Shown one piece after another: positions 779-17,707 of a DNA stretch of 17,707 nt; position 1 is the first letter of the stretch, and each line of letters opens with the position of its first letter. Below the pieces are notes generated by a model. It saw nothing but the letters and a program-made list of their open reading frames with translations, was not told the origin of the DNA and made no database searches. Origin of the DNA: an uncultured Eisenbergiella sp. (GTDB taxonomy: Bacteria > Bacillota > Clostridia > Lachnospirales > Lachnospiraceae); contig CARDPF010000021.1 in the NCBI GenBank assembly GCA_948960675.1, forward strand, positions 1,553 to 19,259. Direction: 5' to 3'. A program made the translations under genes and the position numbers.

Positions 779-1453
779 CCAGAACTGTAGGGCCGTGCGT
801 TACCCTATCGGACGGAGATGATCATTCCATTCCATATTCCCGATATAGTTGTCTCCTGATTTGCAAGTCCGTGAGCGCTCCGTTACAGAAATCGGCAAAA
901 ATCCGATCCTTTCCCAGATACCACTTCAATTGGGTATCTTTTTTCCCCATTTATTGCCCCCTTACTTTTTGCGGCCTGTTCCCCTAATTACGAACAGAAA
1001 CCTCTTTTCATCTGATCCGGAAATAGCGGGCGAAAATACCCTACGGAAACAAGGAAAGGCCTGTCCTGCAAACCTTCCGCTGTCCAAACAAGATGCACCA
1101 CGGCGAATCAGACTCCGCCCGATGCTATAAGATTTCCAATCATTCAGATTCCCTTCGGATCGTTATTCCATCCGATTCTGCGCTTAGTATACACCATTTT
1201 CCACAAAAGAACAAGCACTTTATTCTATTAAGCCACGGAAACCAATTTTGCAGGAAGGGGAGGGCTTTTCTTACCGAATATTCCCTAATACGAACATTAT
1301 TCTTGTATAAAAAGAGATTCCAAAGAAGCATATTAACGGAATGGTTCGTTGGCGATATCAGCTGCCTTTATCAATAGTAAAAAATCTATTGAACTAATAG
1401 AAGTATGATTTATTGTGTTTGAACGGATGGCGGGGCTGAAAACCTCATAACAC
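779..1453. other. Gene-free stretch
   Basis: About 0.67 kb in which I see no convincing gene. The short open frames here (for example 849-1130 and 1093-1377) lack a good ribosome binding site, have proline/histidine/serine-rich compositions typical of shadow frames, and show no domain. The base composition becomes more AT-rich towards 1270-1440. No tRNA-like fold or clear promoter was recognised. It might be a decayed gene or regulatory DNA. Confidence 0.5.
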
Positions 1454-4878: not shown

Positions 4879-6177
4879 ATGTTTCGGAAAGTACATCTTC
4901 GGCTCACCCTGCTGTGTGTAGTGGTCACCATCCTCATTATCGGCAGCATGAGCGCCGCTTATTTGTATATCTCGGAAAAAAACCTGCGGGACACATATTT
5001 TTCTTCTTTTCAGAATGATATGAATACCCTGCTCTCCAATCTGGGAAACCAGTCGGTTATCACCCACCGGTGGCTTTCCTGGATGGAGGGAAACGGAAAA
5101 TACATCATTGATGTGCGGGACAACGGCGTGGATTTTCTGTGGAACAGCTACACGGACACCGCCCATCCCGAACGCCGCCCCGCCATCGACGCCGGATGGG
5201 ATTATTACAACAGCCACTTTTCCATGGCATCCGGATCCTCTTTTTATTCCATCTCCCATCAGGAATTTTCCTTTTCCCAGACCGGATCCGGGCCGGACGA
5301 TTATTACGGCTGTGTCGCTGTTTTTTCCCGTGACAGCGGTACGCTGTCTTTCCTGATTTTAAAACCGCTTTCCCCGCTGACCGTACAGATTGCCGCCCAG
5401 CGCAGGGCCTTTGTCGTACCCGTTCTCGCCGCCTGCGCATTCCTTTGGCTCTTTTTCTGGTATTTTACCAGAAAACTGCTCTCCCCCATTGAAGAAAGCC
5501 GCCAAAGCCAGATACGCTTTGTGGCCGCCGCTTCCCACGAACTGCGCACCCCGCTTTCCGTCATTCTTTCTGCGGCCGATGCCTGTAAAAAGGCGAAGCC
5601 TGCGGAACAGGACAAGTTTTTTGCCATCATTTCGGACGAGGGAAAAAGCATGTCCCGGCTGATCAGCAGTCTGTTGATGCTGGCCGGCGCCGACAGCCAT
5701 TCCTTTTCCCTGCAAAAAGAAAACTGCGAAATGGATACCCTCCTTCTGGATACCTTTGAAGCTTTCGAGCCGCTGGCACAGAAAGGGGGACACGCCCTCT
5801 CTGTCCTGCTTCCCGACCACAGGGTCGCCCCCCTGTACTGCGACGGCGACCGCATCCGGCAGGTGCTCTCCATTTTGCTTCACAACGCCTTTTCCCATAC
5901 GCCTGCAGGCAGCCACATCCGCCTTTCGCTGAAAGATACGCCAAAGGAACTGTCCCTTTCCGTCTCCGACAATGGCCCCGGCATTCCGGACGACAAAAAG
6001 GCACGTATTTTTGAACGGTTTTACCGCGCGGACAATGCCCGCCCTGACAGCCCCGACTCCCATTTCGGGTTGGGACTGTCCATCGCAGGGGAAATTTTAC
6101 ACGCCCATGGCGGCTCCATCCGGGTTTTTGACACTCCGGGCGGCGGCGCCACCTTCACCCTTACCCTGCGCCGGTAA
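4879..6177 (+). CDS. Membrane sensor histidine kinase, no HAMP domain
   Basis: A 432-residue sensor kinase. Transmembrane segments are predicted at about residues 9-30 and 177-196, enclosing an extracytoplasmic sensor region of about 145 residues rich in Ser, Tyr and Asp. The H-box follows soon after (FVAAASHELRTPLS, His220 the phosphoacceptor). Only about 23 residues separate membrane and His220, too few for a HAMP domain. The ATPase part shows an N-box (LHNAFSHTP), G1 (DNGPGIPDD), an F-box-like FERFYRAD and G2 (GLGLSIAGEIL). AAGGGGG precedes the ATG. It should phosphorylate the regulator encoded just upstream. The ligand is unknown. The tail GGGATFTLTLRR is normal for the family, so the gene seems intact. 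Confidence 0.95.
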   Translation: MFRKVHLRLTLLCVVVTILIIGSMSAAYLYISEKNLRDTYFSSFQNDMNTLLSNLGNQSVITHRWLSWMEGNGKYIIDVRDNGVDFLWNSYTDTAHPERRPAIDAGWDYYNSHFSMASGSSFYSISHQEFSFSQTGSGPDDYYGCVAVFSRDSGTLSFLILKPLSPLTVQIAAQRRAFVVPVLAACAFLWLFFWYFTRKLLSPIEESRQSQIRFVAAASHELRTPLSVILSAADACKKAKPAEQDKFFAIISDEGKSMSRLISSLLMLAGADSHSFSLQKENCEMDTLLLDTFEAFEPLAQKGGHALSVLLPDHRVAPLYCDGDRIRQVLSILLHNAFSHTPAGSHIRLSLKDTPKELSLSVSDNGPGIPDDKKARIFERFYRADNARPDSPDSHFGLGLSIAGEILHAHGGSIRVFDTPGGGATFTLTLRR

Positions 6178-6218
6178 CAGTGCAGCCTGCCGGCCCGCAA
6201 AATTGATTCCCGCCAATC

Positions 6219-6247
6219 TTGCCAATAGCGTCTGCGCAGGGTATAAT
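6219..6247 (+). promoter_or_regulatory. SigA-type promoter for the propeller-like membrane protein
   Basis: TTGCCA (6219-6224) and a perfect TATAAT (6242-6247) are separated by 17 nt. The expected start of transcription, near 6254, leaves a leader of about 20 nt with the ribosome binding site AAAGGGG at 6258-6264. This gives the third gene of the cluster its own transcription in addition to any read-through from the kinase gene. Confidence 0.75.
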
Positions 6248-9913: not shown

Positions 9914-10002
9914 CTTCCTACCGCTGCCGCACCTGCCGACGTACCGTCTGGGCCCATGGCTAAACGAAATGACATTACCCATGAACTGTAACCTGATTTC
10001 CG
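9914..10002 (+). promoter_or_regulatory. Upstream promoter element, copy B (full length)
   Basis: An 89-bp sequence in the intergenic region before the HEPN gene. Its right end reads AACTGTAACCTGATTTCCG (9984-10002), and the CCG lies exactly 20 nt before the -35 hexamer at 10023. Its left part (CCGCTGCCGC, CCTGCCGACG, CCCATGGC, then an AAACGAAATGACAT segment) aligns with the copy at 17558-17641 in opposite orientation, with roughly three quarters of positions identical. A shorter version is at 12426-12452. Confidence 0.7.
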
Positions 10003-10022
10003 TGGGGCGGCAAACTGTAGCA

Positions 10023-10051
10023 TTGCAAATCACGGATGCCTATGATAAGAT
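10023..10051 (+). promoter_or_regulatory. Probable SigA-type promoter of the HEPN gene
   Basis: TTGCAA (10023-10028) and TAAGAT (10046-10051) are 17 nt apart. The hexamers are mediocre on their own (four of six each). The call is strengthened because the conserved upstream element ends exactly 20 nt before the -35, as it does at two better promoters in this window. The leader would be about 58 nt. Confidence 0.5.
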
Positions 10052-10115
10052 GGAAAAATACAAACTATGACATGCCAGGCTGCAGTAATACTTGTGCCGG
10101 AAAGGTGGCATCACA

Positions 10116-11420
10116 ATGGAAAACAGATCCAAACTGTACGGCGTAGTACAGGGACAGGAAAAAATATCGTTTGTATTGGACGGATTTGAATGCGTCTTTT
10201 TTCACACGGATCCTGCGCCGAACACTTTTACCCTCCTTCCCCACCGTCAGGGATTTATTGTGGGGCGTACCGCCGCCCAAAGATACGTCTATATCTACGC
10301 CCATCAGGATTTAAAGATATGGCATGAACTGACCCTGCACACCTGGGGATACATCGTCAGCAGTTCCCCCGACATCCAAGCCTATCAAATTCTTTGTTTC
10401 AAAGGCGGTATTCTCAATAAACTTTTTTACCAGTCTTCCGTCAAATTTGAGTACACCGACGCAGACGAAACGAAAGTACAATACCGGGACGACACCCTGT
10501 CCTACCCCTTTACAGGCAAAAAATGGAAGGGCAGGATCTCTGTATATTCCTCTCCCCTCGAGCGGATGTCGGCGGAAAAAGGCGAATCCATCCAAACGGG
10601 GGGAACCTGTCTGGAAATTTCGTTTGATGGGGAAAAGGAACTCCAAACCTTTCCGGAAGTATTCGGCTATCTGCTGAATCTGTGCCAGTTTATGGCCTTT
10701 CGGCGTAATGTCAGCTTTGCGGAAGTGGCTTTTTTAAGACCCGACGACCGTTTCCCGGAAATGACCGTCTCCCTTGCGGACTGTCATATCCATTATGAGC
10801 ACACCCTGAATACCGAAAAGCCAATCCACAGCTGCCTGACCTTCAACACATTGGGACAATCGGTTTGTGGCCTGTTGGTCTCCATCATGGAAAATACCCC
10901 GAAAAAGCCCCGCTTTAACATCGGGTTTCTTCCCGAAGACGACAAAACCGTCACATACATTACCGGCATGAAAATCCGGGAAATCTGCTCTGCCCTGGAA
11001 TCGGAAATGGAACTGGCCAACATACAGGTGCAGCAGGAGGAAGCCTTCGACGCGCTGGTGAACCGGCTAAAGGCCGTCGTCACCGAAAGCCGCGACGGCG
11101 ACCATCCGCTGCCGGATCCAAAGGTGTATGATTATCTCTTCGGTACGCTCAGGCACTTATCCGGAGCCCTTTCTGACCGCATGGAAAAATGCTTTCTGGA
11201 CTGCCAGCCGCTGCTGGGCGAAGCACTCTCCCGCAGGCAGATCGACGAACTGGTCAAATACCGCAACACCATTACCCACGGCAGCTTCATGCCGCTGGAC
11301 CCCAATCTGGCCGAAACCGCATATGTCCTTATCAAACTGGTCTACTGCTGCGTCCTGAAACGGATCGGAATGACAGACTCCACGATCCGGGAACTGTTCC
11401 GGTGGCGCCTCATATCCTAA
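10116..11420 (+). CDS. Predicted HEPN-domain protein, ApeA-like architecture
   Basis: A 434-residue soluble protein without membrane segments. The first half to about residue 210 is beta-rich (SKLYGVVQGQEKISFVLDGF, YVYIYAHQDLKIWHELTLHTW). The second half is helical. Near the C-terminus, YRNTITHGS carries Arg383 and His388, the R-x4-H motif of HEPN domains, preceded by helices (RHLSGALSDRMEKCF) and followed by a hydrophobic helix (YVLIKLVYCCVLKRIG), as in HEPN folds. Catalytic HEPN proteins are metal-independent ribonucleases that often act in phage defence or toxin systems. The order of beta-rich N-terminal domain then HEPN resembles ApeA. The ATG at 10116 is chosen for AAAGGTGG seven bases upstream. 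No antitoxin-like or nucleotidyltransferase partner is adjacent. Nuclease activity is inference from the motif, and the N-terminal family is not recognised with certainty. Confidence 0.65.
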   Translation: MENRSKLYGVVQGQEKISFVLDGFECVFFHTDPAPNTFTLLPHRQGFIVGRTAAQRYVYIYAHQDLKIWHELTLHTWGYIVSSSPDIQAYQILCFKGGILNKLFYQSSVKFEYTDADETKVQYRDDTLSYPFTGKKWKGRISVYSSPLERMSAEKGESIQTGGTCLEISFDGEKELQTFPEVFGYLLNLCQFMAFRRNVSFAEVAFLRPDDRFPEMTVSLADCHIHYEHTLNTEKPIHSCLTFNTLGQSVCGLLVSIMENTPKKPRFNIGFLPEDDKTVTYITGMKIREICSALESEMELANIQVQQEEAFDALVNRLKAVVTESRDGDHPLPDPKVYDYLFGTLRHLSGALSDRMEKCFLDCQPLLGEALSRRQIDELVKYRNTITHGSFMPLDPNLAETAYVLIKLVYCCVLKRIGMTDSTIRELFRWRLIS

Positions 11421-11427
11421 ACGTTTT

Positions 11428-11448
11428 TCCGGCCAAGCCGGATGTTTT
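11428..11448. terminator. Bidirectional terminator between HEPN and methyltransferase genes
   Basis: TCCGGC (11428-11433) and GCCGGA (11437-11442) form a perfect 6-bp GC-rich stem with a CAA loop. It is followed by TGTTTTTA on the plus strand and by AAAAACG reversed (a run of five T) on the minus strand. It lies between two convergent genes, 8 nt after one stop and 12 nt after the other. Confidence 0.85.
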
Positions 11449-11459
11449 TAATGCCCGCG

Positions 11460-12278
11460 CTACCGCGTGCGCTGGCGCGTGACCTCATACATCAATACGG
11501 ATGCCGCGCAGCTAACGTTAAGGGACGACGCGTAGGAACTTTCCGCCATCGGAATCGTACACAGAACGTCGCAATATTCCTTGAAGGCCTTATTCAATCC
11601 CATCGTCTCATTCCCCATCATCAGCAGAAGCGGGCCTTTTAAATCCACACCATACGCCGGGTTTTCCCGATGCGCCGTCGTTCCCACAACTTGAAATCCG
11701 GGATATCTCTTTTTCAGTTTTTGCAGATACCCAAACAGCGATTCCTGGTCCGATACCCTTACCGCCGGCATGTTGAAAAACGATCCCATCGCCGATACCA
11801 CCACGTCCGGATCATACAGATCCACGGCGTGCCCCGTGACAATCAGCATATCCGCCCCCAGAGCATCGCAGGAACGGATCATGGTACCGAGGTTTCCTTT
11901 GTTGGACGGACGGTCAAACAGAACCAGAAAGGGATTTGGGGAAAGCGGCACGCTGTTTAAATCGTCATTGCGCATTTCTATGACCGCCATCAGTTCCGAA
12001 GTATCCTCCTTCCCGCTCAGTTCCCGCATCAGGGAAGCAGTCAAATTGTAATTGACTTTTGTATGTACACTGTGAATCATATTGGCCGCCCAATCCGATA
12101 AATGATTCCTGTCATATAAAAACGAATGAATATTCCAATGGTTTTCCACTGCCTCATTCAGGCTTCGGACCCCCTCCACCAAAAATTCATGGTATTTGTA
12201 CCGCTTATTCCGATTGGTTTTTAACACTTCCCACTTTTGGAAATCATTATTCTTGTTCACAATCTTGATCTCGTTCAT
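11460..12278 (-). CDS. SpoU/TrmH-family RNA 2'-O-ribose methyltransferase
   Basis: A 272-residue SPOUT-class methyltransferase that should transfer a methyl group from S-adenosylmethionine to a ribose 2'-OH in rRNA or tRNA. An N-terminal substrate-binding region (residues 10-105, with KYHEFLVEGVRSLNEAV) precedes the knotted catalytic domain. Motif 1 is NKGNLGTMIRSCDALG (Asn126, catalytic Arg135), motif 2 is LLLMMGNETMGL (Gly222-Asn-Glu) and motif 3 is IPMAESSYASSLNVSCA (242 onwards, with Ser-Leu-Asn-Val at 252-255). All key residues are present and the length is normal. AGGGGG lies just before the ATG. A good promoter sits about 100 nt upstream. The exact RNA target cannot be read from the sequence. 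Confidence 0.93.
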   Translation of the reverse strand: MNEIKIVNKNNDFQKWEVLKTNRNKRYKYHEFLVEGVRSLNEAVENHWNIHSFLYDRNHLSDWAANMIHSVHTKVNYNLTASLMRELSGKEDTSELMAVIEMRNDDLNSVPLSPNPFLVLFDRPSNKGNLGTMIRSCDALGADMLIVTGHAVDLYDPDVVVSAMGSFFNMPAVRVSDQESLFGYLQKLKKRYPGFQVVGTTAHRENPAYGVDLKGPLLLMMGNETMGLNKAFKEYCDVLCTIPMAESSYASSLNVSCAASVLMYEVTRQRTR

Positions 12279-12376
12279 CTCTGCCCCCTATACCGCCTGT
12301 CCGCTGCAGCCTTTTCCGAAAGACTCCCACAGCCGTCTGCAGCCCTTTTTCCCGGTTCCTTTTTTGGTCATTTCCC

Positions 12377-12405
12377 ATTATACGAAATAACCCACCTCCC
12401 GGCAA
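12377..12405 (-). promoter_or_regulatory. SigA-type promoter of the RNA methyltransferase gene
   Basis: On the minus strand TTGCCG (12405-12400) and a perfect TATAAT (12382-12377) are separated by 17 nt. Predicted transcription starts near 12370, giving a leader of about 92 nt. The conserved upstream element ends exactly 20 nt before the -35. Confidence 0.8.
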
Positions 12406-12425
12406 TCCCTTCTTTCCCCAAAACA

Positions 12426-12452
12426 CGGAAATCAAGTTACAGTTTAGCCATG
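12426..12452 (-). promoter_or_regulatory. Upstream promoter element, copy C (short form)
   Basis: Read towards the methyltransferase gene, it is CATGGCTAAAC followed directly by TGTAACTTGATTTCCG. The first part equals 9955-9965 of copy B and the second equals 9987-10002 with one change. Copy C therefore matches copy B with 21 bp removed. Its CCG end lies exactly 20 nt before the -35 at 12405. Its other end is four bases from the base of the large hairpin at 12457-12548. Confidence 0.65.
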
Positions 12453-12456
12453 AACC

Positions 12457-12548
12457 AGAACGGCATTCCATTCCGACCGGAAAACGCGGACTGTTTGAGC
12501 GCAGCGAGTTTCCGCGCTTTCCGGTTGCTTGGAATGGAATGCCGTTTT
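12457..12548. repeat. 92-nt near-perfect hairpin (palindromic element) after spoVAD
   Basis: The outer stem is 16 bp without mismatch (AACGGCATTCCATTCC at 12459-12474 with 12531-12546), extendable by an A-T and a G-T pair. A second stem pairs CCGGAAA (12477-12483) with TTTCCGG (12518-12524). A third pairs CGCGGA (12485-12490) with TCCGCG (12511-12516). The terminal loop 12491-12510 contains GAGCGCAGCGAG. It starts 51 nt past the spoVAD stop and has no strong T-run. It may end the spoVAD transcript, protect its 3' end, or be one copy of a dispersed palindromic repeat. Confidence 0.8.
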
Positions 12549-12598
12549 AGCTTTGGATGCGCCTGCCCGGTAAGAGGGCTGCCCCGCCCCAATAAGCG

Positions 12599-13678
12599 TT
12601 AAAGATGCTCCAGCACCACCCCGTGGGCAATTCCGGGCACATTCTGGCCTTCATTAAAGCTTGTCTTTGACAGCAGGGCGCCGGTGGGAACGAACAAAAC
12701 CCTTTTCCAGGTTCCCTCCGCAATCTTTTGCAGCACGTAAGCGCTCAGCACCACGGCGCTGCAGCCGCAGCCGGAGCCCCCCGCATGGGTGTCCTGCTTT
12801 TCCCCGTCATAAATCTCAATCCCGCAGTCCATATGCTGCTTCGCGATATCCACATCCCTCTCCAGCAAAAGGTCCAACAGGGCGCGCTGCCCCACCTTCC
12901 CCAAATCCCCGGTGATAATCCGGTCATAATCCTCGGGCCTGCGTCCAAAATCCTTCAGGTTTTGGTAAACCGTATCCGCCGCCGCAGGGGCCATGCACGC
13001 CCCCATATTCATGGAATCCTTCAACCCAAAATCCACAATTTTGCCCGGCGTAATCCCGGTAATGGCCGCTTTGGCCTCTTCCCCGCTATTGCTCAATACA
13101 AAAGCCCCGCTTCCTGTCACCGTCCAGGTCGCGGAAAGCGGCCGCTGGTTCCCATACCCCAAGGGAAACCGAAATTCCTTTTCCGCGCTGGCAAAATGGC
13201 TGCTGGTGACACAGGCCACATACTCTGCAAAACCACCGCAGATTGTCATGGCGCCCAGGCTCAGCGAAAGCCCGCAGGTCGAACATGCCCCATAGAGCCC
13301 GAACAACGGCTTATCAAACTGTGACAGGCCAAAGCTGGTGGCAATCCCCTGTCCCAGTAAATCCCCCGCAAACATATAGCGGATGTCCGTGGTATGCAGT
13401 CCGGCCTTTTGTACCGCCAAATGCAGGGCATCCCTCTGCAGGCTGCTTTCCGCTTCCTCCCAGGTATTACAGCCAAACAGGTCATCCTCCCCGACCACAT
13501 CGAAAAGTTCCCCCAAAGGGCCCTCCCCCTCCTTTTTGCCAACCACGCATGCGCTTTCCCTGATAAAAACAGGCACCGGGAATTTGATGCTTTGACTGCC
13601 ACAGGCAAACATCGCTTTTTCTCCCAGCGCCTCGTTCTCAACGGAAGCATTCCGCTTCCCCTCTTTCTGCTTTTCCAT
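12599..13678 (-). CDS. spoVAD: Stage V sporulation protein AD
   Basis: A 359-residue thiolase-fold protein matching SpoVAD, a part of the SpoVA channel that binds dipicolinic acid and loads it into the developing spore. Hallmarks are the IKFPVPVFIRESACVVGKKE opening, LFGLYGACSTCG with the thiolase-like Cys, RPLSATWTVTGSGAFVL, DFGLKDSMNMGACMAPAA, DYDRIITGDLGKVGQ, GGSGCGCSA and the tail GQNVPGIAHGVVLEH. About 20 extra N-terminal residues (MEKQKEGKRNASVENEALGE) precede the conserved core. The ATG at 13678 is chosen because GGAGGG lies six bases upstream. Unusually, neither spoVAC nor spoVAE is adjacent: upstream is a LytTR regulator gene, downstream a hairpin and an RNA methyltransferase gene. 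A SigG-like promoter lies upstream, so forespore expression is likely. Confidence 0.95.
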   Translation of the reverse strand: MEKQKEGKRNASVENEALGEKAMFACGSQSIKFPVPVFIRESACVVGKKEGEGPLGELFDVVGEDDLFGCNTWEEAESSLQRDALHLAVQKAGLHTTDIRYMFAGDLLGQGIATSFGLSQFDKPLFGLYGACSTCGLSLSLGAMTICGGFAEYVACVTSSHFASAEKEFRFPLGYGNQRPLSATWTVTGSGAFVLSNSGEEAKAAITGITPGKIVDFGLKDSMNMGACMAPAAADTVYQNLKDFGRRPEDYDRIITGDLGKVGQRALLDLLLERDVDIAKQHMDCGIEIYDGEKQDTHAGGSGCGCSAVVLSAYVLQKIAEGTWKRVLFVPTGALLSKTSFNEGQNVPGIAHGVVLEHL

Positions 13679-13810
13679 AGCATTCCCTCCGTATCCGACT
13701 GTTCCTGACGCCTTGCCCGTCAGAAAACACCTTTCACAATGGTCTGTGTCCGTAACGCCCAAAACCTGTCCGCCCCAGTCCCCGTGCAGGCAGTCTTTTG
13801 GACTATTCCT

Positions 13811-13840
13811 TAGTATCGGAAGGAATCCTTTCTTTTATGC
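13811..13840 (-). promoter_or_regulatory. SigG-like forespore promoter of spoVAD
   Basis: On the minus strand GCATA (13840-13836) and GATACTA (13817-13811) are 18 nt apart. This fits the SigG pattern (GHATR at -35, CATnnTA at -10) except for the first base of the -10. The leader would be about 125 nt. The -10 box is framed by ATTCCT (13805-13810) and AGGAAT (13821-13826), a 6-bp dyad that could be an operator or chance. Confidence 0.6.
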
Positions 13841-13892
13841 AAATCCTATCATCCCAACTGACCTATCCCGTAAAAATAACGTAATTGCCCGC

Positions 13893-14606
13893 TTACTCCA
13901 TCTTTTCCCCTAAAAACTGCAAAAACTCATCCTTCGCTTTTGCATACCTCGGCCTGCTGACAGGAATCAGCTTTCCGTCTGCCAGTTCCACGCCCTTTGC
14001 GGAAAAAACGCGGATTTGCTTCATATTGACCAGATAACTCTGGTGCACCCTGACAAAATATTCCGGAAGCTTCCCTTCCAAATCACCAAGCTTTAAATTC
14101 ACCCGGATATCTTCCTCCCGGGTATGCACCGTCAAAATCCGCCTTTCGCTCTCCACATACCAGATGTCTTCCGCCCTCACCCTGGCAATGAAACTTTTGG
14201 AAATCAGGGTCACGGAAGTCGCTTCCTGTTCCTCGATCTGTTCAATCGCCCGGTCCACAGCCTCCAAAAACTTTTCCTGACGGACCGGGGATATCAAAAA
14301 AGAGGTTGGTTCCGCCTCGAAAATGTCTTCCGTACACTCCAGCATACCGGTTGAAAAAATGATTTTTACACCGCCAAAAATTTCCTGTGCCTGCTTTACG
14401 GCAATAAGGCCACCCATTTCCTGCGCCTTGACATCCATGTAAATAATGTCGGACTTTTTACGTTCATCTCGCTGCCATGCGCGCAAAAGTTCCTCGCCCG
14501 ATGAATAAGTCGCGATCTGCAGCTCTTTTCCGTACTTCGCTGCCAAAAGCCTGCGCACCGATGCCAAAGTCTCGCAGCAGCTGTCACAAATTGCGATTTT
14601 TCTCAT
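13893..14606 (-). CDS. LytTR-family response regulator with a degenerate receiver
   Basis: A 237-residue regulator of the AgrA/LytR type. The receiver (1-120) keeps the phosphorylatable Asp58 in IIYMDVKAQEMGG and Asp8 in IAICDSC. However, the second acidic residue of the usual pair is Ser9, and the invariant Lys before Pro is replaced by Ser106 (SFLISPV). The LytTR DNA-binding domain (about 135-235) is well kept, with FIARVRAEDIWYVES, FVRVHQSYLVNMKQI and IPVSRPRYAKAKDEFLQFL. The start at 14606 is used because AGGGGTGA lies five bases upstream. The stop is about 50 nt from the SigG-like promoter of spoVAD. No histidine kinase gene is adjacent, so it is an orphan here. The altered receiver suggests weak or phosphorylation-independent control. 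Confidence 0.9.
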   Translation of the reverse strand: MRKIAICDSCCETLASVRRLLAAKYGKELQIATYSSGEELLRAWQRDERKKSDIIYMDVKAQEMGGLIAVKQAQEIFGGVKIIFSTGMLECTEDIFEAEPTSFLISPVRQEKFLEAVDRAIEQIEEQEATSVTLISKSFIARVRAEDIWYVESERRILTVHTREEDIRVNLKLGDLEGKLPEYFVRVHQSYLVNMKQIRVFSAKGVELADGKLIPVSRPRYAKAKDEFLQFLGEKME

Positions 14607-14728
14607 AGAGTTCACCCCTGTCTGCATACAACATGAATTCTTTGTGTCAGATCAGTTTTGTTCCTTTGTCCATAATACGCCTTTCCTGACTTTATAATAA
14701 CACACATAAAAAGTTTTGCACTAAGGCA

Positions 14729-14743
14729 GATACAATATGTATC
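14729..14743. promoter_or_regulatory. Perfect dyad GATACA-N3-TGTATC upstream of the LytTR gene
   Basis: GATACAATATGTATC has 6-bp arms around a 3-bp AT centre, located about 125 nt upstream of the LytTR start and beyond the pnp terminator. It is the size of a dimeric regulator site. It does not resemble the direct repeats bound by LytTR proteins. Function is unknown. Confidence 0.35.
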
Positions 14744-14806
14744 GAAAAAGACAAATTTTGTTCCTCAAATAAGACCTTAAGATGCCTGTTTTTGCCTTTT
14801 TACACG

Positions 14807-14848
14807 GAAAAAAAGGGAAACCCGCCATAGGATTCCCCTCTTCTTTTT
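14807..14848 (-). terminator. Intrinsic terminator of the rpsO-pnp operon
   Basis: On the minus strand AAGAGGGGAA (14842-14833) pairs with TTTCCCTTTT (14820-14811), with one G-T pair, around a 12-nt loop. A T-rich tract follows. It lies about 19 nt after the pnp stop. The plus-strand version also ends in T-rich sequence. Confidence 0.75.
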
Positions 14849-14860
14849 CATAATATTGTT

Positions 14861-16951
14861 TTAAACCTGCGCAACATCTTTCATGGAAAAACTCATCCGG
14901 CCCATTTTGTCCTTGCCAAGGCATACCACCGTAACCTTATCTCCCAGTGTCAGTACATCCTCCACCCGGTTGATTCTCTCTTTGGCAATCTTGGAAATAT
15001 GAACCATTCCCTCTTTTCCGGGGGCAAACTCCACAAACGCGCCAAATTCCTTGATGCTGACCACCGTACCCTTGAAAATCTGGCCCGCCTCAAATTCCGT
15101 CACAATAATCTTAATCATTTCCACGGCCTTGTCCATCATGGCCCTATCTGTACCACATACGGACACCGTGCCGTCATCCGTGATATCAATCTTTACACCC
15201 GTACGGGCAATGATTTCATTGATCGTCTTTCCCCTCTGCCCCACTACATCACCGATTTTTTCGGGATCAATCTGGATGGAAATGATCTTGGGCGCATACG
15301 GGCCGACCTCCGGCCTGGGATGGGCGATGCAGGGCGTCAGGATCTCGTTGATGATATACTCCCTCGCCTCTTTGGTCCTGGCAATGGCCTCTTCCACAAT
15401 CGGCCTGGTCAAACCATGGATCTTGATATCCATCTGAATGGCCGTAATTCCGTCATGGGTACCGGCCACCTTGAAATCCATGTCACCGAAAAAGTCTTCC
15501 AATCCCTGAATATCCGTCAGCACGATGTAATCGTCATCCGTATCGCCTGTCACCAGGCCACAGGAAATACCGGCCACCTGCTTCTTAATCGGCACGCCCG
15601 CCGCCATCAGCGACAATGTGGACGCACAAACGGAGGCCTGGGAGGTGGAACCGTTGCTCTCAAAGGTTTCGGATACCGTACGGATGGCATACGGGAACTC
15701 CTCCTCTGTGGGAAGCACCGGCATCAGCGCCTTTTCCGCAAGCGCGCCATGGCCGATTTCACGGCGGCCCGGCCCCCTGGAAGGCTTGGTTTCCCCTACG
15801 GAATAGGACGGGAAATTATAATGGTGCATATATCTTTTGGAAACCTCATTCTCGTCAAGCCCGTCAATTTTTTGCATCTCGGAAAGGGGGGCCAGGGTAC
15901 ACACATTGCAGATCTGTGTTTGTCCCCGCGTAAACATGCCCGATCCATGCACCCTGGGAATGATATCTATTTCTGCAGCCAGCGGCCGGATCTGGTTGAT
16001 CGCACGACCGTCGGGACGCTTGTGATCCTTCAAAATCATCTTACGCACCGTTTTTTTCTGATACTGGTAGACTGCCTCGCCCAATACCGCAAGCCACTCC
16101 TCCCTGTCTGCAAAAGCCTCTTCCAGCTTCTCCGTAATCTTACGGATATTTTCCTCCCGCACCTGCTTTACATCCGTAAACACGGCTTCTTCCATCTCCT
16201 GCGGGGTCACGATTTCCCGCATCGCCGAAAACAGTTCTTCCGGCACCGCACAGCTGGTATACTCATGCTTGGGTTTCCCTACTTCCGAAATAATCTGGTT
16301 GATGAAAGCGATCAACGTCTGGTTCACCTCGTGCGCCATGTAAATCGCTTCGATCATTTTCGCTTCCGGCACCTCGTTAGCGCCCGCCTCAATCATAATG
16401 ACCTTCTGCGCCGTGGAAGCCACCGTCAGCTGCAGATCCCCCTTCTTCCACTGCTCCTGACCGGGATTTACCACAAACTCCCCGTCCACCAGTCCCACCT
16501 GCGTCATCGCGCACGGACCGTCGAAGGGAATATCGGATACACAGGTGGCAATCGCCGCCCCCAGCATCGCCACCAGTTCCGGACGGCATGCAGGATCCAC
16601 GGACATCACCAGATTGTTCAGCGTCACGTCATTGCGGTAATCCTTCGGAAACAGGGGACGCATCGGCCGGTCAATCACACGGCTGGTCAAAACGGAATTC
16701 TCGCTGGCCTTCCCCTCCCTCTTATTGAATCCGCCGGGAATCTTACCCACGGAATACAGCTTCTCTTCAAACTCCACCGAAAGCGGGAAAAAGTCAATGC
16801 CCTCCCTCGGCTTCTCGCTGGCAGTGGCGGTGGATAATACCGTCGTCTCCCCATACTGCATAAATGCCGCGCCGTTGGCCTGCGCAGCCACACGCCCGAT
16901 ATCCACCCGCAGGGTTCTACCGGCCAATTCCATTGTAAACGTCTTGTACAT
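14861..16951 (-). CDS. pnp: Polyribonucleotide nucleotidyltransferase (PNPase)
   Basis: A 696-residue PNPase, the trimeric 3'-5' phosphorolytic exoribonuclease of RNA turnover. The domain order is complete: a first RNase PH-like domain (about 1-230, with FMQYGETTVLSTATAS), a helical linker, a second RNase PH-like domain with SRGPGRREIGHGALAEKALMP and the catalytic Asp490/Asp492 in GDMDFKVAGT, then KH (GDVVGQRGKTINEIIA) and S1 (GTVVSIKEFGAFVEF through GKDKMGRMSFSMKDV). The start at 16951 (MYKTFTMELAGR) matches the family and has AGAGGAA upstream. In-frame starts further left have no support. It follows rpsO on the same strand, as in many bacteria, and ends with a terminator. Nothing suggests damage. 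Confidence 0.98.
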   Translation of the reverse strand: MYKTFTMELAGRTLRVDIGRVAAQANGAAFMQYGETTVLSTATASEKPREGIDFFPLSVEFEEKLYSVGKIPGGFNKREGKASENSVLTSRVIDRPMRPLFPKDYRNDVTLNNLVMSVDPACRPELVAMLGAAIATCVSDIPFDGPCAMTQVGLVDGEFVVNPGQEQWKKGDLQLTVASTAQKVIMIEAGANEVPEAKMIEAIYMAHEVNQTLIAFINQIISEVGKPKHEYTSCAVPEELFSAMREIVTPQEMEEAVFTDVKQVREENIRKITEKLEEAFADREEWLAVLGEAVYQYQKKTVRKMILKDHKRPDGRAINQIRPLAAEIDIIPRVHGSGMFTRGQTQICNVCTLAPLSEMQKIDGLDENEVSKRYMHHYNFPSYSVGETKPSRGPGRREIGHGALAEKALMPVLPTEEEFPYAIRTVSETFESNGSTSQASVCASTLSLMAAGVPIKKQVAGISCGLVTGDTDDDYIVLTDIQGLEDFFGDMDFKVAGTHDGITAIQMDIKIHGLTRPIVEEAIARTKEAREYIINEILTPCIAHPRPEVGPYAPKIISIQIDPEKIGDVVGQRGKTINEIIARTGVKIDITDDGTVSVCGTDRAMMDKAVEMIKIIVTEFEAGQIFKGTVVSIKEFGAFVEFAPGKEGMVHISKIAKERINRVEDVLTLGDKVTVVCLGKDKMGRMSFSMKDVAQV

Positions 16952-17058
16952 ATTTCCTCTCATTCTGCCGCCCTGTGCGGCTCTGCAACCGGAAAGGTTC
17001 CCTCCATGCACCGTACGGATTCCCCTTCCCCTTTTCATCAGAAAGATTTCCACAGGAA

Positions 17059-17099
17059 AAGGCGGCTAGCCAGCGCTAAACCGACTGAATACCCGCCTT
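17059..17099 (-). promoter_or_regulatory. Hairpin between rpsO and pnp
   Basis: On the minus strand AAGGCGG (17099-17093) pairs with CCGCCTT (17065-17059). Inside it, TAGC and GCTA can form a smaller stem. Only four T follow, so it is at best a leaky attenuator. In other bacteria a stem-loop at this place is the RNase III and PNPase target for pnp autoregulation, and the same role is plausible here. About 200 nt separate the two genes. Confidence 0.5.
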
Positions 17100-17150
17100 A
17101 TCCTTCCCATGGCACAAAAAAGCACATGCATCGCGCCTTTTGGGCCATTT

Positions 17151-17417
17151 TTATTTTCTGATGCCCAGTCTCTCAATCAGGGAACGATATCTTTCGATAT
17201 CCTTCTTCTTCAAATAATCCAGCAGCCCCCTTCTCTGTCCGACCATCTGCAAAAGTCCTCTTCTGGAATGATGATCCTTGGGATTGCTCTTTAAATGCTC
17301 TGTCAACTCCTGAATCCGCGCCGTCAAAACCGCTACCTGAACCTCCGGCGAACCCGTATCGCCTTCCGTTCTCCCATACTCTTTGATAATCGCCGTTTTC
17401 TTTTCCTTGGAAATCAT
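17151..17417 (-). CDS. rpsO: 30S ribosomal protein S15
   Basis: An 88-residue S15 of normal length. It is the primary 16S rRNA-binding protein of the 30S platform. The family pattern is clear: [54 protein letters not shown] and [19 protein letters not shown] lies 7 nt before the ATG. It is the first gene of the rpsO-pnp operon. The leader of about 85 nt (17418-17502) is GC-rich and can fold, so S15 autoregulation of the kind known in several bacteria is possible, but no specific binding structure was identified. Confidence 0.98.
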
Positions 17418-17508
17418 GATAAATCCTCCTTATTCTGCAACCGCCTGACGCTAAGCTGTGGGTCGGAGCATCCCATCCCCGGGCGCCGGCTCTTCTCCAT
17501 ACTTGCCT

Positions 17509-17537
17509 ATTGTAGCATAGAACCCACCGGATGTAAA
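17509..17537 (-). promoter_or_regulatory. SigA-type promoter of rpsO-pnp
   Basis: On the minus strand TTTACA (17537-17532) and TACAAT (17514-17509) are separated by 17 nt, both five of six to consensus. The conserved upstream element ends exactly 20 nt before the -35. Confidence 0.8.
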
Positions 17538-17557
17538 CAACAATTTTTCATGGTCCG

Positions 17558-17641
17558 CGGAATCGTAACAGTTCAGGTTACCATGTCATTTTGTTTCGCC
17601 ATGGGCTTTGGCGGTGCGTCGGCAGGCGTGGCAGCGGCAGG
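17558..17641 (-). promoter_or_regulatory. Upstream promoter element, copy A (full length)
   Basis: Read towards rpsO, it ends CTGAACTGTTACGATTCCG (17576-17558), with the CCG exactly 20 nt before the -35. The distal part (CCGCTGCCAC, CCTGCCGACG, CCCATGGC, AAACAAAATGACAT) aligns with copy B at 9914-10002 over about 84 bp with small indels near the proximal end. GTAAC (17565-17569) and GTTAC (17577-17581) also form a local dyad. Confidence 0.7.
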
Positions 17642-17707
17642 ACAGCCCCCTTACAGTGCGGGCAGTTCCTTACGCATGGTGGCATGCAAACGGTGGAATT
17701 TCCCAAA

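Follow-up and report, generated by a model that had tools for sequence, protein, structure and literature searches.

Three copies of a short repeat in a 17,707-nucleotide (nt) stretch of DNA from an uncultured Eisenbergiella sp. (contig CARDPF010000021.1, positions 1,553 to 19,259; hereafter the window) are very probably relics of transposons that resemble miniature inverted-repeat transposable elements (MITEs), are apparently non-autonomous, and insert at a fixed distance upstream of sigma-A promoters. The original prediction, made from the letters of the window, had noticed that the sequence common to the three copies, termed the core, is followed at a constant distance by a promoter. This observation is real and is confirmed here. 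The core is best read as the junction of two different element ends, in which the end of an element that we call F1 abuts the end of a second one, F2. The genes downstream of the three copies are rpsO-pnp (Ribosomal_S15), a SpoU methylase gene, and an open reading frame (ORF) of 442 amino acids (aa).

F1 is a dispersed MITE-like element

F1 is a MITE-like mobile element with the ends GTAACAGTTCAGCC...GGCTGAACTGTTAC and 8-base-pair (bp) target duplications, and it is dispersed in Lachnospiraceae. In 397 Lachnospiraceae genomes, drawn evenly from a larger group, the exact end GGCTGAACTGTTAC is present in 82 genomes, with at least 10 copies in 28 and a maximum of 154; the reversed pattern, used as a control, matched once in the 397. 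F1 ends have about 14 bp in common, ending in ...TTAC, and often occur as inverted pairs. We collected 73 complete elements of 28-243 bp, all short with matching terminal inverted repeats, and most F1 copies are likely to lack coding capacity, judged from this size. The 8-bp flanks of the 73 are identical in 8/8 positions in 25 elements and in 7/8 in 17 (42 in total), compared with 0.2 for swapped flanks, and registers of 7 and 9 bp gave no such signal. The duplications are 78% A+T. The repeat is thus mobile, as had been suspected, with 8-bp target-site duplications flanking single F1 insertions. Among the complete elements, 23 are no longer than 31 bp, approximately two abutting 14-bp ends, and 11 of these 23 have duplications of at least 7/8; such copies may have arisen by the collapse of long hairpins instead of having jumped as units of that length.

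F1 ends preferentially lie 28-30 nt from predicted -35 hexamers

The outer end of F1 is preferentially located 28-30 nt from a predicted -35 hexamer. Promoters were predicted with a -35/-10 weight matrix for sigma-A, and the F1 ends tested, a part of all copies, were chosen by their terminal repeat and not by promoters. The sequence model used for further copies was built from 12 copies, 10 of them from genome G008, and results outside G008 were counted separately. We take G008 to be the closest to the window among 13 genomes of the genus because two window genes match it (85% and 87%) and no match to these two is listed in the other 12.

A promoter begins 28-30 nt beyond the end at 57 of 197 F1 ends outside G008 and at 34 of 61 in G008. 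Offsets 28, 29, and 30 received 15, 32, and 19 hits, respectively, outside G008, whereas other offsets averaged 2.69 and base-shuffled flanks 2.50; the next-best separate three-offset window held 18 hits vs 66. Two features that the score does not use support the view that these are real promoters. A TG extended -10 is present in 25 of the 57 promoters at 28-30 nt, and a ribosome-binding site plus ORF follows downstream at 34 of 47 promoter ends vs 34 of 117 other ends. With the -35 ignored, the extended -10 alone marks 18 ends at offsets 51-53, against a mean of 0.34 per offset. The spacer is 17 nt in 44 of the 57, a length that the score slightly favors. The distance looks steadier to the -35 than to the -10, since promoters with an 18-nt spacer (at least 8 bits) keep offset 29 in 6 of 8 cases.

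A promoter at 28-30 nt flanks 16 of the 42 F1 elements with good duplications, on one side or both. Because each element has two ends, at most about half of the ends could be expected at promoters. Either end can face the promoter: in genome G300 it is the CGGG-type end at loci L319, L320, and L553 and the ATGG-type end at L552, and in G247 it is the ATGG-type end in 3 of 3.

F2 ends closer to the promoter, and the core joins F1 to F2

The end of F2 is GATTTCCGTG. A complete 127-bp copy at L152 reads CACGGAAATCGATTTTGCGGCC...GGCCGCAAAATTGATTTCCGTG and carries the 8-bp duplication TTTTCTGG on both sides. As shown from fewer cases than for F1, F2 (ends CACGGAAATCGATTTTGCGGCC) ends 17-19 nt from the -35: of the 40 F2-type ends collected from G008 places and from the window, a promoter exceeds the threshold at 28, and in 23 of these 28 the best promoter lies at 17-19 nt, mostly 18.

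Three observations lead us to read the core as an F1 end abutting an F2 end, namely the complete F2 copy at L152, the G008 promoter of the 442-aa gene, and L225, where the far side of F1 still reads GCAAAATGG. At the G008 promoter the F2 end is GCAAAATGGATTTCCGTG, the contig starts 6 nt before it, and no F1 end lies next to GATTTCCGTG; in the window, F1 is joined to the same GATTTCCGTG. An F2-like motif (GATTTCC-like) follows 23 of 61 F1 ends in G008 and 4 of 197 elsewhere, and of the G008 ends without it 15 of 38 still have the promoter. The rarity of the motif outside G008 and these motif-less ends indicate that the F1 distance is independent of F2.

The three window copies

The layout described in the original prediction, CCG followed by 20 nt, a -35 hexamer, 17 nt, and a -10 hexamer, can be read directly in the sequence at all three cores. 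Copy A has its core at 9984-10002 (+), TTGCAA at 10023-10028, and TAAGAT at 10046-10051; copy B its core at 12444-12426 (-), TTGCCG at 12405-12400, and TATAAT at 12382-12377; and copy C its core AACTGTTACGATTCCG at 17573-17558 (-), TTTACA at 17537-17532, and TACAAT at 17514-17509. The spacing is identical when anchored at the CCG but not otherwise, since copy C is missing 3 nt of the core: measured from the mobile-element end (GTWAC), the distances to the -35 are 30, 30, and 27 nt for copies A, B, and C. A similarity of some 85 bp had been assigned to copies A and B. It joins instead the copies at 9914-10002 and 17558-17641 (60 nt at 83%; 79 bp at 81% in a second comparison), whereas the copy at 12426 is 27 nt long and has 21 nt at 95% in common with that at 9914. 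The elements and promoters are as follows.

9914..9992 (+): degenerate F1 element of copy A, with its body and the right end ATGAACTGTAAC (end at 9992); this end resembles the F1 end, the element aligns with copy C over 79 bp at 81%, 30 nt to the -35
9994..10004 (+): F2-type end of copy A, TGATTTCCGTG, with 18 nt to the -35 downstream
10023..10051 (+): predicted promoter TTGCAA-17-TAAGAT of gene 10116-11420, also present in G008 (L185)
12424..12447 (-): copy B, F1 end CTAAACTGTAAC (12447-12436) adjoining an F2-type end TGATTTCCGTG (12434-12424)
12377..12405 (-): TTGCCG-17-TATAAT, predicted to be the promoter of the SpoU methylase gene 11460-12278
17565..17642 (-): degenerate F1 element of copy C, with its end CTGAACTGTTAC at 17565 and 27 nt to the -35; L001-L004 lack it at their orthologous rpsO promoters
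17556..17564 (-): F2-type end of copy C, GATTCCGCG, worn
17509..17537 (-): TTTACA-17-TACAAT, the predicted rpsO-pnp promoter, kept in relatives without the element

Gene 10116-11420 is the 442-aa ORF, counted from 10092, for which no Pfam match was found. An F1-like end is also present at the orthologous G008 promoter of copy B (L187), 29 nt from the -35.

Occupied and empty rpsO promoters

At L011, in one relative, an F1 element precedes rpsO, 29 nt from TTGCAT-17-TATACT, and L008, in another relative, has the same rpsO promoter without the element. The reverse case also occurs, in that L008 carries an F1 element with the duplication AATGAAAA where L011 has none. The window rpsO promoter matches those of L001-L004, four relatives from the genus that have no core at this promoter, and the similarity stops between the -35 box and the element. 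These two comparisons suggest that insertions struck the rpsO promoter in two lineages; the copy in the window is worn.

The core in G008 and the rest of the genus

The polynucleotide phosphorylase of the window is 95% identical to that of a metagenome-assembled genome labeled Eubacteriales and 93% identical to that of Candidatus Eisenbergiella merdigallinarum. Copy A, used as a query against the genus, gave weak matches, several of them in G008 at contig starts and running into promoters; it had no match among phages and plasmids. A core pattern search allowing 3 mismatches yielded 44 matches in G008 vs 9 for the reversed control. Matches exceeded the reversed control in the other genus genomes, too, and places were therefore judged by their position relative to promoters, for which 40 of the 44 G008 places were retrieved. 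All eight retrieved G008 places that differ from the core at no more than two positions are followed at 18-21 nt by a promoter scoring 6 bits or more, in agreement with the predicted spacing; this did not extend to the other genus genomes, where 0 of 27 retrieved core-like places have a promoter at that distance. Among viral contigs, the core occurs once in exact form (L102), and the stretch read there contains no such promoter.

The sequence model detected at least 62 matches in G008 at E<=10, with 150 of 1677 candidates scored. Aligned, the G008 matches have the conserved end CTGAACTGTTAC, and the sequence beyond it varies. The repeats may break these assemblies, since many G008 contigs start just upstream of the repeat end.

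Candidate sources of the transposase

It is possible, though doubtful, that F1 elements are MITEs of an insertion sequence (IS) of the IS66 family. IS66 elements have GTAA ends and generate 8-bp duplications, as was also seen in IS66 loci here, and F1 agrees with them in both respects. IS66 transposases are present in 5 of 12 F1-rich genomes. At L348, the C terminus of an IS66 transposase (PF03050, PF13817) is followed, 17 nt after the last codon, by the F1 end GAATGGCGCGGGCTGAATTGTTAC, with TGTACA-17-TATAAT 29 nt beyond. This locus is a truncated copy, wrecked in that an IstB fragment (PF01695) runs into the IS66 fragment, and L572, which is 80% identical to it, has a different end, GTAAACGC. 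Among eight IS66 loci from F1-carrying genomes, L348 is the only one with an F1 end within 2 mismatches. Eleven further IS66 loci include three with perfect ends and 8/8 duplications (L567, L570, and L571) and one with imperfect ends and an 8/8 duplication (L577); unlike F1, these four full-duplication copies have no promoter of at least 6 bits at 28-30 nt. A separate IS66 locus, L576 on the Ruminococcus albus plasmid pRUMAL02, has, between TnpB and the transposase, an ATP-binding protein together with an LCxxNW protein annotated as mobility-associated.

We also consider it unlikely that F1 is mobilized by a Mutator-like transposase of the p-MULT3 (TnGBS/ISLre2) or ISKra4 type. Guerillot et al. 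2014 (PMC3942029) describe insertion targeted to promoters, at 13-17 nt, for TnGBS, ISLre2, and ISKra4. In their account, the right end of the TnGBS integrative conjugative elements and of ISLre2 (p-MULT3) is placed 15-17 nt (13-17 in figure 2) from the -35, in a fixed orientation; these elements encode a transposase, have inverted repeats 18-39 bp long whose terminal cytosine is conserved, and generate 8-9 bp duplications. The ISKra4 group (p-MULT4) is described there as inserting at 13-17 nt with promoters on both sides, with near-perfect inverted repeats and an encoded transposase, and the phyla listed for p-MULT4 do not include Firmicutes. The original prediction knew of no named element of this structure; promoter-targeting elements had already been described, and it is the F1 distance that differs.

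Compared with that account, F1 resembles TnGBS/ISLre2 in its fixed distance upstream of sigma-A promoters, its inverted-repeat ends, and its 8-bp vs 8-9 bp duplications, and F2, at 17-19 nt, comes near their 13-17. By contrast, F1 lies at 28-30 nt, either of its ends faces promoters in G300, and its complete copies measure 28-243 bp. With ISKra4, F1 has in common promoter-upstream insertion in which promoters may lie on both sides, as well as near-perfect inverted repeats, but not the distance of 13-17 nt or the encoded transposase. PF06782 (ISLre2-type), which we take to be a marker of the UPF0236-type transposase, occurs in one of 13 genomes of the genus and in four of 30 that carry F1; an F1 end within 2 mismatches was found at 0 of 11 such loci, and one lies at 3 mismatches.

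In G247, contigs stop inside a longer F1-ended element whose flanks pair by their duplication (CCCAATTG and others), and some of these face promoters; the interior of this element was not found in the bin. The F1 14-mer is present in at least 120 stretches of viral contigs, and those scanned for both ends gave no autonomous element. The IS-type ends of G247 and others, L271, and the G131 candidates were rejected, none of them being an intact F1-ended transposon. At L475 of G131, an F1 end directly precedes a reading frame without a Pfam match, and a second F1-like end lies beyond it in the same orientation.

Discussion

In the lineage of the window, F1 ends adjoin F2 ends, and this junction forms the core. 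We propose that a transposase supplied in trans docks on RNA polymerase bound at the promoter, perhaps through the alpha domains of the polymerase, or else on the -35 region; insertion would then occur just upstream of the polymerase footprint, at approximately -65 for F1 and -54 for F2 by established promoter geometry, roughly one helical turn apart. The 15-17 nt given for TnGBS/ISLre2 in PMC3942029 would be near -52. The promoter would stay in place, so that an insertion would be tolerated; effects on expression are possible. More tentatively, and with our confidence falling short of an even balance, there may exist, outside the known Mutator-like groups, a transposition system that reads promoters and inserts minute elements roughly one helical turn farther upstream than TnGBS/ISLre2 does; in many gut Lachnospiraceae it would have rewritten the sequence upstream of dozens of promoters in each genome.

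Several points weigh against reading the copies as promoter-targeting insertions. Neither an intact parent transposon nor a transposase of F1 was found in the IS66, PF06782, and candidate-locus searches; ISKra4 transposases were not searched for. The promoters are predictions from a consensus, and 26 of the 42 duplication-verified F1 elements have no predicted promoter at 28-30 nt on either side. The promoter signal is weak in G373 (1/12), G379 (1/11), G357 (2/15), and G187 (2/14), and outside G008 there is an unexplained minor excess at offset 38 (8/197 vs 2.7), about one helical turn beyond the main peak. F2 is represented by one complete copy, and F2-type ends that lie at a promoter with no F1 end beside them number only four (L151, L152, L185, and the window at 1234). 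When 3 mismatches are allowed, only 9 of 39 retrieved G008 core places lie at promoters, and the window copies are too worn to show duplications or left ends of their own.

A functional link to RNA polymerase or to an adjacent activator had been put forward for the core, with a global regulator or a promoter-targeting repeat as possible explanations. The constant distance to the -35 proves real and holds generally, and promoter targeting is upheld; a role of the core as the site where an activator or global regulator binds next to RNA polymerase is unsupported and seems to us most improbable. Such a site would account for the fixed distance upstream of unrelated genes and for the GATTTCC-like motif after F1 ends in G008, yet outside G008, where the motif is rare, the 29-nt distance persists. 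Two orthologous G008 promoters keep F2 or F1-like ends, which inherited insertions explain as well. Moreover, the conserved part is a transposon end with 8-bp duplications, and the core-like places retrieved from the other genus genomes are not at promoters. We set the activator site aside based on these duplications, the presence of the promoter at the empty site, and the absence of the core at rpsO in the four genus relatives. Finally, the constant spacing could have been inherited by copying if the repeat carried its own promoter, an explanation with almost no probability given that the spacers and promoters differ between copies and begin with insertion-specific duplications, and that the promoter is present at the empty site.

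Insertion of transposons at a fixed distance from promoters was already known, and we rate the F1 ends and the 29-nt distance as apparently new: a literature search, mostly without subscription papers, gave no account of either. Bacterial MITEs and REP/BOX/RUP-like repeats are short, palindromic, intergenic, and mobilized in trans, and F1 resembles them in the first three properties and probably also in the last. To our knowledge, no fixed distance to a -35 box has been described for such repeats. Few bacterial elements are known to select promoters, and a dispersed family with a distance of its own provides a second yardstick for how transposases recognize them. In addition, F1 ends mark likely promoters in uncultured gut bacteria, and the family may contribute regulatory variation next to housekeeping genes such as rpsO-pnp.

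Other features of the window

Two further places in the window carry element-like ends.

1234..1254 (-): F2-type end, read leftwards GCAAAATTGGTTTCCGTG, 19 nt from TTGTTC (1214-1209)-17-TATACT (1191-1186)
6174..6214 (+): F1-like left end GTAACAGTGCAGCC (6174-6187) and F2-like GCAAAATTGATTCCCG (from 6197), a relic whose spacing to the next promoter does not fit

The good predicted promoter at 1186-1254 (-) faces leftwards, where no gene is obvious on the same strand, and the F2-type end with its promoter possibly belongs to a small RNA or is a relic. The F1-like left end near 6174 holds the stop codon (6175-6177) of a putative histidine kinase-like ORF (4879-6177) and, within 6160-6247, lies just upstream of a TTGCCA-17-TATAAT promoter.

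The window has no Rfam match at the gathering score. In the rpsO leader (17430-17510, -), the block CTCCGACC...GCGGT is conserved in L001-L004, L008, and L011, and it may represent an S15-type autoregulatory leader. Upstream of copy B, positions 12459..12551 form a long hairpin, 74% self-complementary with the loop TTTGAGCGCAGCGAGTTT, which is itself a dispersed sequence with 82-83% matches at C33 and C282 of G008.

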